The position numbers and the translations under genes were made by a program. A DNA stretch of 11,484 nucleotides. Source: Candidatus Desantisiibacteriota bacterium (lineage in GTDB: Bacteria > JACRDZ01). Where the stretch lies: the NCBI GenBank assembly GCA_016209155.1, contig JACQWU010000173.1, positions 1 to 11,484 of the forward strand. The letters run 5' to 3'. Of this stretch, positions 2 through 7,209 are shown one piece after another (the first letter of the stretch is position 1; the number at the start of each line of letters is the position of its first letter). The notes beneath the pieces are model-generated. The model did not search any database. It was given only the letters and a program-made list of their open reading frames with translations, and was not told the origin of the DNA.

Positions 2-397
2 ACGGTAAATGTAGAGACGCAAGTGACATTGAATGGATCAGGGAGCAGTGATCCCGATAGCGATGTTATAACTTATTCATGGACGCAGGAAAGAGGAGAT
101 AATATAACATTATAAAATCCGAATTCTGCCGCTCCGACCTTTATTCCAAATGCAACAGGTGTATATGAATTTAAATTAATAGTGAATGATGGAAAAGCAA
201 ATAGCACTCCTGATATAGTTAAAATAATAGTTAATAAAAATAATAATAAAACATCATGTTTTATTACAAATATAATAAGAAATAAAAAAACTATTAATTT
301 AATAAATAAAATAAAAGATAAATACTTATTTCAGAATAAATCAGGTAAAGAAATGATAGATTTATATTATCATATAACCACGGATATAAGTCCTTGA
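2..397 (+). pseudogene. 3' end of a PKD-type surface protein with decayed CFI-box C-terminus (in-frame stop)
   Basis: The frame starting at base 2 reads TVNVETQVTLNGSGSSDPDS and then ITYSWTQ, a typical PKD/cadherin-like repeat of secreted proteins. It hits TAA at 113-115 and continues in the same frame as NPNSAAPTFIPN...VYEFKLIVNDGKA, the second half of the same repeat. In relatives the stop position is usually Ser (LSNPNSA), and TCA to TAA is one base. After an Asn/Lys linker comes CFITNII...KDKYLFQNKSGKEMIDLYYH, which I read as a diverged CFI-box C-terminal domain (family pattern CFIATAAYGS...RDxYLLTNxxGxxFVxLYY). The ATAAYGS part is lost and the frame ends at 395-397, earlier than usual. 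The N-terminus lies outside the window. A nonsense mutation plus motif erosion indicates a pseudogene. A truncated but working protein ending at 115, or a sequencing error, remains possible. Confidence 0.72.
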
Positions 398-442: not shown

Positions 443-2095
443 ATGGATAGTAAAATGGTAAAAAAACTATTTCCAATATTATTTATTAATTTAATATTTA
501 TTTTAAATAATTCCTATGCTCTGGAAAATTCCAAAGATGTAGTTATTGTACATGATAATGAATTTCAAACATGGGAAAATGGGAGAAAATATGCTCTGAT
601 TATCGGCATTTCGAAATACGCATTGAAAAATATTCCTGATTTAAAATATGCAGTGAATGATGCTAAAGCTGTTGCCGAGTTTCTCGGAAAAGAAAGTATT
701 CTTAAATATGACGAAGTTACACTTCTCTCGGATGAAAATGCAACCCGCATAAATATTTTACGCTCGCTTACAGATATATCGAAAAAAATCGGTCCGAAGG
801 ATACATTTTTTATGTATTATTCCGGACATGGAATGGAAGAATATTTAATCCCTTTCGATGGCAATAAAGAATACCTTGAAGATACAAGTGTCAGGTGGAG
901 TGTTGATATATATAAAAAAATTAACAAAATGGAAGCAAAACAAAAAATACTCATTATTGATTCCTGCCATTCCGGTTCACTTACAGAGAGTAATACGATT
1001 GCAATGAAAGGCGCAGCGGAAGAGCAAAATATTGATGAAAAATTATTAGCGCAAATGGGACAGGGGCTATTTGTTATTACCTCCAGCCGTGTTGATGAGA
1101 TTTCATGGGAAAATGATAAGAATAAACACGGGTATTTTACATACTATTTATTAGAAGGATTAAAGGGATTCGCTGATAAAAGAGGACAGCAGCTTTCTGG
1201 AAATGAAGACGGCTATGTTACGGCAGAAGAACTTTATGATTATGTAAGCTATAAAACTAATGAGAATGTAATGCTTGATTACAATAAATTCCAGCATCCC
1301 AGGAAAAGCTTTAACGGGGAAGGAATGATTTTTTTAAGCAAAAGTGCGCAGCCTCAAAAAAATTATTTGCCGGTTAATCCGGTGATTGATAATAGAGAAG
1401 GGTATAAAGGAATTCAAGAAGAAACTAATAGTAAAAAAAGCAATGATAATTCATCAGCTCCGCCTGCAAAAAATTATTTTACTTCTTTACCTGATAAAAA
1501 ATCTTCAATCAGCATGGAATATCTGAATTTATATAGAGATATAAGTTATAAAAACTCCGGCGAAAAAATTTCATCTAATTATAAAATAAAATTTTTAAAA
1601 TTTGAATATGGATTTGCTAAATTATTTTCTATATATTTAAAAACAGGTGCAGTACAGCTTACGTTATATGAAAAATACGGAGAGGCGTCTTTCGCGTATG
1701 AAGGTGGAGCGAAAATTGATTTATTGTCTTCGAATATTGTTAATTTTGATATTAGAACAGAATATCTTAATTTTGAAAATACCTTAAATGAGATTAAAAG
1801 AAAAACAATTTGGCGGGAATTCCGCACCGGTACAGCAATAACTTTTAATAAATATAAAGAGTTTTCCCCATATATAAGTATTTATAAATTAAATATTAGT
1901 GGTAAAGTAAATTCAAAAAATGAACAAACTGAAAATTCAATTGGTAATTCAAAAGAAGGGAATTTTAAACAGGATTTTTTTATTGGGATTAAGTCTATTA
2001 TAGGAAAATCATTATTTATTGAAGCAGAATTACGTTCACCGGAAAATTTAAAAAAAACTAATGGGGTTAGCATCGGGATAGGGCAGATGTTTTAA
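443..2095 (+). CDS. Secreted caspase-like peptidase (C14 family) with C-terminal predicted beta-barrel
   Basis: A 550-residue protein. Residues 5-26 form a signal peptide (basic MVKK, hydrophobic core, cleavage likely after NNSYA). Residues 49-300 are a caspase/metacaspase-like p20 domain with the catalytic dyad visible: His129 in YSGHG and Cys175 in DSCHSG. The usual KYALIIGIxxY and AVNDAKAVAEFL motifs precede them. Residues 301-355 are a polar Ser/Asn/Pro linker. Residues 356-550 are rich in alternating amphipathic strands, roughly 8 to 10, and end GVSIGIGQMF, a terminal-Phe strand typical of outer-membrane beta-barrels. Caspase-like enzymes cut after Arg/Lys or Asp; the specificity here is unknown. 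No good ribosome site precedes the ATG at 443. The ATG at 455 (MVKKLF) gives a cleaner signal peptide and may be the real start. The peptidase call is firm; the barrel is inferred from strand pattern alone. Confidence 0.93.
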   Translation: MDSKMVKKLFPILFINLIFILNNSYALENSKDVVIVHDNEFQTWENGRKYALIIGISKYALKNIPDLKYAVNDAKAVAEFLGKESILKYDEVTLLSDENATRINILRSLTDISKKIGPKDTFFMYYSGHGMEEYLIPFDGNKEYLEDTSVRWSVDIYKKINKMEAKQKILIIDSCHSGSLTESNTIAMKGAAEEQNIDEKLLAQMGQGLFVITSSRVDEISWENDKNKHGYFTYYLLEGLKGFADKRGQQLSGNEDGYVTAEELYDYVSYKTNENVMLDYNKFQHPRKSFNGEGMIFLSKSAQPQKNYLPVNPVIDNREGYKGIQEETNSKKSNDNSSAPPAKNYFTSLPDKKSSISMEYLNLYRDISYKNSGEKISSNYKIKFLKFEYGFAKLFSIYLKTGAVQLTLYEKYGEASFAYEGGAKIDLLSSNIVNFDIRTEYLNFENTLNEIKRKTIWREFRTGTAITFNKYKEFSPYISIYKLNISGKVNSKNEQTENSIGNSKEGNFKQDFFIGIKSIIGKSLFIEAELRSPENLKKTNGVSIGIGQMF

Positions 2096-3381: not shown

Positions 3382-4164
3382 TTGGAAGAAGCCAAAACCA
3401 TCCAGATAGTAATTAATGAACTGAAAGATAATATTAAATATAATGATACGGTTTTGAATATTTTTTCACATAGTAATATTTTTGCCGGAAAGCATGATGC
3501 CTATCGCGAAACGTTTACCAAAACGAGCAGAGTAAAAATTTTTGCTGTAAGACTGGTTAAAGTGAAAAAATATGAACCTGTTCAGAGTTTTATGGATGAT
3601 GTAGGCAGATATTATTTTTTTCATGATTCTGATATTTCCAGTTCAATACAGGATTTTACGTTTAATGACTTTAGCAGAGAATTGACCGCCCGTATTGAAT
3701 TGAGTTTTTTTAAAATTTTTAAATATTTGATCCCATTTGACTATAGTTTCTATATGGGCCTGAATAAAAGCGATATTGAAAATAATTTCGGGAAAATAGT
3801 TAAGGACTATATCAATTCCCATGAAGAAGTGTTTCATTCTGATATGCCGGAGGGAGAAATTATTTTTGAATGCAGAGATGAGGATCTAAGCATATTATAT
3901 TCTGATATATGGACAAAGATAAAATATGCAAAAGGATTTATTTTAAAAAAAAACAGCTTATATTATCTGCGAACATTTTATGAAGAAAATAAGGATGAAA
4001 CATCTGTTAGAGATTTTTTAAACAATACTTATGCTATATTTGAGTCTCTGCCTGAGCACAGAGGAATTGTACTTTTTTCCAATAAAATTAATCATGTTGA
4101 TTTTTTTCAGGATTTGGTGCATCTGTATGAAATTAATAGAGATTTGGCGAAATATTCTGTTTGA
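3382..4164 (+). CDS. Hypothetical soluble protein, not recognised
   Basis: A 260-residue protein that starts with TTG at 3382, preceded by GGAG (3370-3373) at an eight-base spacing, the best start available in this frame. It has no signal peptide or membrane helix. The composition is rich in Phe, Tyr, Asp, Lys and Ile, with no metal-binding, nucleotide-binding or DNA-binding motif I can name. Segments such as FMDDVGRYYFFHDSD and the FKIFKYLIPFDYSFYMG block look like a folded alpha/beta protein rather than low-complexity sequence. It lies 18 bases after the small membrane protein, so the two are probably co-transcribed and may form a membrane-tethered pair (inference). Function unknown. Confidence 0.72.
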   Translation: MEEAKTIQIVINELKDNIKYNDTVLNIFSHSNIFAGKHDAYRETFTKTSRVKIFAVRLVKVKKYEPVQSFMDDVGRYYFFHDSDISSSIQDFTFNDFSRELTARIELSFFKIFKYLIPFDYSFYMGLNKSDIENNFGKIVKDYINSHEEVFHSDMPEGEIIFECRDEDLSILYSDIWTKIKYAKGFILKKNSLYYLRTFYEENKDETSVRDFLNNTYAIFESLPEHRGIVLFSNKINHVDFFQDLVHLYEINRDLAKYSV

Positions 4165-4253: not shown

Positions 4254-4719
4254 ATGCTGGAAAATATCTCTGTGATAGTTCCTGTTTACAACGAAGAAAA
4301 AACACTGCCGGAAGTTTTAGCCGAAATCTATGCAGTATTAAAAAAAGATTTTGAAAATTTTGAAATTATAATAGTCGATGATCATAGCTTTGACAATTCA
4401 TTAAAGTTAGCAGTGCAATTTGCCTCCGGATTGGACCATAAAACAAGGGTTATAAGACTGGAAAAGAATTATGGTTCTGGATATTAACTGGATAAACCTG
4501 TGGAAAAAAGAAGTTTTTAATAAAATTCAGGTAAAATCCGAAGGTGTGTTTTTTTTAGGTGAAATTGTTGACAGGGCTAAATATAGCGGATATAAAATAA
4601 TTGAAATCCCGTCTCTTTATCTTCCAAGAAAAAGCGGTCAAGCCAAAGGCGGAAAATTATCTTCAATTTTTAAAGCTGTAGTTGAAATGATTCGCTACTT
4701 TTTTGTCCGTAAGTTCTAG
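4254..4719 (+). pseudogene. GT2-family glycosyltransferase, central domain deleted and frame shifted
   Basis: The first part (4254-4487) reads MLENISVIVPVYNEEKTLPE...IIIVDDHSFDNS...VIRLEKNYGSGY. This is the N-terminal nucleotide-sugar-binding half of a GT-A family 2 glycosyltransferase (dolichyl-phosphate-mannose synthase-like). It then stops. The C-terminal part continues in another frame from about 4474 to 4719: LDINWINLWKKEVFNKI, EIVDRAKYSGYKIIEIPSLY and LPRKSGQAKGGKLSS, matching the family's DINCGFKLFKREVF...GYKIxEVPV...PRKxGxSK end. The catalytic middle with its Asp-x-Asp metal motif is missing, an estimated 80-100 residues. The ribosome site (GAGG, 4246-4249) is intact. This is a deletion pseudogene, not two genes. 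The intact enzyme would have glycosylated an envelope lipid or polysaccharide. Confidence 0.9.
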
Positions 4720-6600: not shown

Positions 6601-7209
6601 TTGAATGGTTTTGGATTTCCCGTAACAGTTGAAAAAAAAGAAAAAAAGCCCGAAACAAATATTGCATCTGCCTTTATCAAGGCTGGGACATTGAAGAATA
6701 TGATTGTTATTGATATTCCTCAATCTTTAAAAAATAAAATACATCGGGAAAAAACTATAAAGGTAAACCTGGAGGTTGATAAAGAACCTCCTGGTGATTT
6801 TTGTATTGAAGCAAAGTACCTTTTCCAGCCTTTGCCTTTTTCTGTTAACACCTATACTTTACCATATCTTTTTGCAGGGAAAATGCATGCGATATTATGC
6901 AGGCCATGGGTAAATAGAGTGAAAGGCCGCGATTGGTATGATCTGGTGTGGTATGCGGGAAGGGATATATCTGTCAATTTGAAACATCTGGAAAATAGGA
7001 TGAAACAGACAGGACATCTTAAAGCGAGTGAATCACTGACGGAAAAAGTTTTAAAACAAAAGCTTCAGGAAAGAATTGAATCCATAGATTTTGAAGATGC
7101 CAAAAAGGATGTTGAAAATCTGCTGAAAGACCCGTCATCACTCGAGGTCTGGTCCGGAGAATTTTTCAAGGTTATTTGCGGGAAAGTTAAGGTTGAAGGG
7201 GATATTTAA
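6601..7209 (+). pseudogene. AbiEii/AbiGii-type nucleotidyltransferase toxin, N-terminus missing
   Basis: The frame encodes about 202 residues from a TTG at 6601 (in-frame stop TAA at 6589-6591). It opens in mid-domain with ELNGFGFPVTVEKKEK and carries the C-terminal signature of the AbiEii (DUF1814) family: LPYLFAGKMHAILCRPW and then RVKGRDWYDLVWYAGR. Family members are usually about 270-300 residues, with an N-terminal nucleotidyltransferase core (GGTAL...RFSxDxDF). That part, including the catalytic Gly-Ser/Asp residues, is absent. Intact members are toxins of abortive-infection toxin-antitoxin pairs, normally beside an AbiEi antitoxin; none is seen here. The long undamaged C-terminal frame suggests recent truncation, or a retained noncatalytic fragment. 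Confidence 0.78.

Follow-up and report, generated by a model that had tools for sequence, protein, structure and literature searches.

Most discussion of bacterial caspase homologues treats them as cytoplasmic proteases of stress, death or defence. The locus considered here lies in the window, by which we mean the whole stretch of 11,484 nucleotides that was analysed, from a draft genome of 3.08 Mb (79% complete) assigned to Candidatus Desantisiibacteriota. It raises the question of where in the cell a caspase acts when it carries both an apparent export signal and a C-terminal domain that an earlier note, made from the DNA letters alone, had read as an outer-membrane beta-barrel. We consider it probable that the gene encodes a caspase-type cysteine peptidase that is anchored in the outer membrane and faces the periplasm.

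The gene (443–2095, + strand) is a complete open reading frame (ORF) of 550 amino acids that begins with ATG, although a second in-frame ATG at 455 is a more usual kind of start than the first. In its product a signal peptide precedes the caspase domain, and a polar linker joins the latter to a C-terminal domain of about 200 residues. The signal peptide (MVKKLFPILFINLIFILNNSYA, with LEN following the cleavage site) was recognised by eye, in agreement with the earlier note, from a KK pair, a hydrophobic stretch and S-Y-A; counted from the alternative start Met5 it runs to residue 26 (455–520, + strand), with cleavage proposed after SYA. Export is also favoured by caspases of G003, a genome of the same phylum, whose N-termini likewise resemble signal peptides.

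The identity of the enzymatic part is clear. Pfam family PF00656 matches residues 48–244 (E = 1.8e-25, model positions 1–195 of 233) with 90.5 bits against a curated cut-off of 21.4, which places the protein in Peptidase C14, and an alignment of caspase relatives carries the domain to about residue 272 (584–1258, +). Both members of the catalytic dyad named in the earlier note were confirmed by position, His129 in a GHG motif (827–829, +) and Cys175 in DSCHSG (965–967, +). Metacaspase-1 entries are its nearest relatives of known structure in sequence (E = 7e-10), an NCBIfam scan of the protein returned one caspase model, below its cut-off, and no other PF00656 gene was found in the 3.08-Mb genome, which is 79% complete. 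Residues 254–263 form an EF-hand-like loop, NEDGYVTAEE (1202–1231, +), which recurs in many relatives as D/N-x-x-GDG-x-[VI]-T-x-x-E and is a possible Ca2+ site. By extrapolation from metacaspases and orthocaspases, the domain would be proteolytic, would prefer basic residues and may depend on calcium.

A polar linker rich in proline, asparagine and serine (residues about 299–352; 1337–1495, +) leads to the C-terminal domain, which spans about 199 residues (about 351–550, mapped as residues 352–550 to 1496–2092, +) and terminates in NGVSIGIGQMF. The end is an imperfect C-terminal signal, with Gln at −3 where an aromatic residue is usual. Direct searches gave little: residues 330–550 and 356–550 searched alone matched no Pfam family even at E 10, and the C-terminal domain alone matched no PDB chain. 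A search of about 190 genomes with the domain returned a 261-aa signal-peptide protein at a marginal E of 1.3e-3 per genome, and the reciprocal search returned the window domain (E = 8.8e-4 per genome) together with a family of similar proteins. Because such pairwise values are marginal on their own over so many genomes (about 200–290), a profile that left the window sequence out, A13, was built as a test from 11 independent, mostly free-standing signal-peptide proteins. Searched against the 3.08-Mb genome, A13 matched the C-terminal domain of the window protein at E = 8.5e-14 and nothing else up to E 10. The domain scored 56 bits (E about 1e-15 at Z = 10,000), the best of 300 shuffled versions reached 4.6 bits and the reversed domain gave no match, so that chance does not account for the region. 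A 29-member barrel profile scored the domain at 51 bits, against 8 for a shuffled control; the profile used to collect its members had contained the window sequence among its 12 rows.

What the domain is follows from its relatives, since it is their profile that matches known barrels. The best PDB matches of A13 are OmpX (E = 2.2e-5) and a major outer-membrane porin (E = 7.4e-5), with VDAC and OmpA following below significance, all of them transmembrane barrels. PF13505 is matched by 5 of the 12 rows of the barrel-family alignment A2 (best E = 1.2e-9), although the window domain's own sequence falls short of the curated PF13505 score; the NCBIfam search gave no model that matched the barrel family. 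A scan of contigs with a 4-row barrel alignment found two loci. The machinery that a barrel would need appears to be present, with an Omp85/BamA fragment at a contig end in the genome itself and whole genes in three relatives of the same phylum (G001–G003). We conclude, from these relatives rather than from its own Pfam score, that the C-terminal domain is predicted to be an outer-membrane barrel of the OMP_b-brl kind, presumably closed. The central claim of the earlier note, a caspase fused to an outer-membrane barrel and hence located in the envelope, is thus borne out by PF00656 and by the window-free profile. The same note had regarded homologues on cytoplasmic proteins as evidence against a barrel; the relatives sit on signal-peptide proteins and none on cytoplasmic ones.

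The side of the membrane on which the caspase lies is a separate matter, on which the earlier note had left both periplasm and surface open and had suggested an autotransporter-like layout. The order of signal peptide, enzyme and C-terminal barrel is indeed that of classical autotransporters, and the barrel might take the caspase through or beside itself to the outside as a surface-exposed passenger. We regard this as unlikely. Autotransporter barrel families gave no match to the C-terminal domain even at E 10, and members of the barrel family are mostly free-standing small barrels of 216–288 aa that follow a signal peptide and carry no passenger. The linker is polar and contains proline, with no evident helix of the pore-spanning autotransporter type. 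As read from sequence, one same-family barrel carries a lipobox and TPR repeats on its N-terminal side (L116) and two others carry TPR-like repeats on their C-terminal side (L117, L118), an arrangement that suggests use of the barrel as a modular outer-membrane anchor. An even strand number leaves both ends of a small barrel in the periplasm, as established for OmpA and OmpX. Free-standing small barrels, with TPRs at either terminus, argue that both termini of the domain would be periplasmic; the same side is indicated by a barrel too small for a passenger, a linker without an evident helix and the lack of a match to any autotransporter family. The caspase domain therefore most likely faces the periplasm; the autotransporter-like layout is not supported, and of the two locations first envisaged the periplasm is much the likelier.

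A protein with a soluble, beta-rich C-terminal domain, which would make it a free periplasmic or secreted caspase, is in our judgement distinctly improbable, although several observations are compatible with it. The AlphaFold models were uninformative and showed no other fold: the full protein, run without an alignment, reached a pLDDT of 29.6, and the C-terminal domain, with three sequences, 29.7. The earlier note had relied on alternating strands that end in phenylalanine, of which the Phe-terminal domain stands by virtue of the profile and alternation by itself does not, since 231 of 2000 shuffles reach its value in a residue-alternation (beta-moment) test. The same-phylum caspases in G003 end in soluble-looking domains, for example LamG-like or ricin-like repeats (identified by eye). 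Against this stand the solved structures that best match the family, all transmembrane barrels, and the PF13505 matches of some of its members. Finally, a caspase effector of an anti-phage defence system is very improbable: the PADLOC caspase model PDLC02987 matches the protein (E = 7.4e-22) and an AbiEii-like gene lies 4.5 kb away, but PDLC02987 is a caspase-domain profile and not a system, and defence caspases work in the cytoplasm together with sensors, unlike this exported protein. The AbiEii-like ORF, though on the same strand, is separated by other genes, including an opposite-strand M16 peptidase gene, and the PADLOC scan of the window proteins found no sensor or effector partner genes of a known system, the neighbouring DUF4384 lipoprotein and the 3382–4164 ORF matching nothing and the third other protein scanned being the AbiEii-like one.

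The outer-membrane-anchored, periplasm-facing caspase has a neighbour that may bear on its function. A gene for a 247-aa DUF4384 lipoprotein (2255–2998, +; PF14326, E = 3.4e-23; lipobox LGGC; RBS-like AGGAGA at 2242–2247) starts 159 bp downstream, across a tandem-repeat spacer that leaves co-transcription of the two genes uncertain. Of 66 genomes selected because they contain a caspase, 32 also have DUF4384; in 19 of these, same-phylum G003 among them, a copy lies no more than 5 kb from a caspase match or shares a protein with one. Counted by copies, the figure was 28 of 64. Published work also describes DUF4384 in fusion with caspase homologues of cyanobacteria and alphaproteobacteria (PMC7475262, PMC6426788). 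The recurrent neighbourhood and the published fusions together make a functional link between the DUF4384 lipoprotein and the caspase likely.

Several other features were observed in the window. Between the caspase and DUF4384 genes, a tandem 14-bp unit (TGAGCAATGAGTGA, about five copies) at 2100–2185 is followed by an inverted copy at 2203–2232, and the transcript of this array could form long alternative hairpins. Upstream, positions 2–300 (+) hold a remnant of a PKD-like domain with an in-frame TAA at 113–115, either a decayed gene or a sequence error. The AbiEii-like nucleotidyltransferase ORF (6601–7209) covers only the C-terminal part of its PADLOC model (88–269 of 270, E = 7.2e-64); the N-terminal portion appears to be absent or to lie in a different frame. 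A short ORF at 4471–4719 resembles, by eye, the C-terminal end of a glycosyltransferase, with no Pfam match.

The earlier note had presented the architecture as unusual, which holds for this particular barrel but not for exported caspases with a probable C-terminal barrel in general. The barrel profile was found in 41 of 386 genomes searched; no second caspase fused to the same barrel family was seen among the ORFs of the fetched loci, a subset of the matches in those 41 genomes, and searches of the phylum's four genomes (the source genome and three others) and of the other genomes covered gave no close full-length orthologue. A different probable barrel occurs in the phylum of G031, where L019, L122, L131 and their relatives have a signal peptide or lipobox followed by a caspase, then a linker domain and finally a tail of about 170 aa. 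Near end-to-end matches to L019 were counted by hand, from a table, in roughly 50 of 117 genomes of that phylum. Phe ends 27 of 36 L019-type tails, many of which are close relatives. We call these tails only probable barrels because the matches of their profile, A15, are weak, the sole PDB hits with E below 1 being NspA (0.2) and Opa60 (about 0.3); PF13505 is weakly matched by 4 of 14 members (best E = 0.0094). Compared with each other, the barrel family of the window protein and the L019-type tails gave a profile–profile probability of only 40. Loci L143–L172, of the same phylum, likewise encode conserved proteins of caspase, linker domain and probable barrel. A further exported caspase, L010, matches PF13505 at 2.9e-4, below the curated score. 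In another, L007, only the caspase domain matches Pfam, and its C-terminal LGLxNxA-type repeats are possibly a surface or barrel domain of another type.

For the window protein we propose the following course of events. The precursor would be exported through Sec and its signal peptide then removed, after which the BAM machinery would insert the C-terminal domain of about 200 residues as a small up-and-down barrel, so that the His/Cys caspase domain would be held in the periplasm on a flexible tether of about 50 residues. The adjoining DUF4384 lipoprotein would be its most likely partner, as a regulator or a substrate adaptor. Activated by calcium, envelope damage or a similar trigger, the enzyme would most likely cleave envelope proteins after basic residues. 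Its role, in this proposal, would lie in envelope stress or regulated death, as a protease held at the envelope.

Some elements of this picture have precedents. In a survey of prokaryotic caspase homologues, 46 had an N-terminal helix, possibly a signal peptide, an extracellular or fratricidal role was proposed for some, and OmpA featured only as a gene, present within 14 caspase operons (PMC3501461). Possible signal peptides and extracellular action are thus already published, and the fused outer-membrane barrel is apparently what is new: our literature search, from which most subscription journals were out of reach, found no description of a caspase–outer-membrane-barrel fusion. Such fusions recur, and this use of a caspase at the cell envelope has apparently gone unreported. 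More tentatively, and as a possibility rather than an expectation, outer-membrane-anchored caspases may be a class of their own, not yet recognised, with at least two origins through fusion to different small barrels. They would place a latent caspase-type protease on the periplasmic face of the outer membrane, in some lineages together with partner lipoproteins of the DUF4384 kind, and would serve killing or remodelling triggered at the envelope. A caspase fixed to a barrel would depend on the periplasm for both substrates and trigger, so that the function of exported bacterial caspases becomes accessible to direct tests; the L019-type lineage, with many finished genomes of 9–13 Mb, probably includes culturable species.

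Among known systems, orthocaspases and metacaspases (Peptidase C14, PF00656) share the caspase domain and the His/Cys dyad with the 550-aa protein, but the published domain architectures that we found lack its fused outer-membrane barrel. Type Va autotransporters have in common with it the order of an N-terminal enzyme and a C-terminal barrel; the window protein differs in its smaller barrel (about 200 aa), which matches none of their families, and in the absence of an evident linker helix. Closer in its membrane part are the small barrels of the OMP_b-brl/OmpA/OmpX group (PF13505), with which it shares a size of about 200 aa, a C-terminal Phe and, at the level of the family, matches to PF13505 and OmpX, whereas the window barrel bears an N-terminal enzyme and its own sequence stays below the Pfam thresholds. 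The L019-type exported caspases resemble it in overall plan, with a signal peptide or lipobox, a caspase and a probable C-terminal barrel mostly ending in Phe, and are set apart by a barrel of another subfamily and by an extra domain between caspase and barrel.
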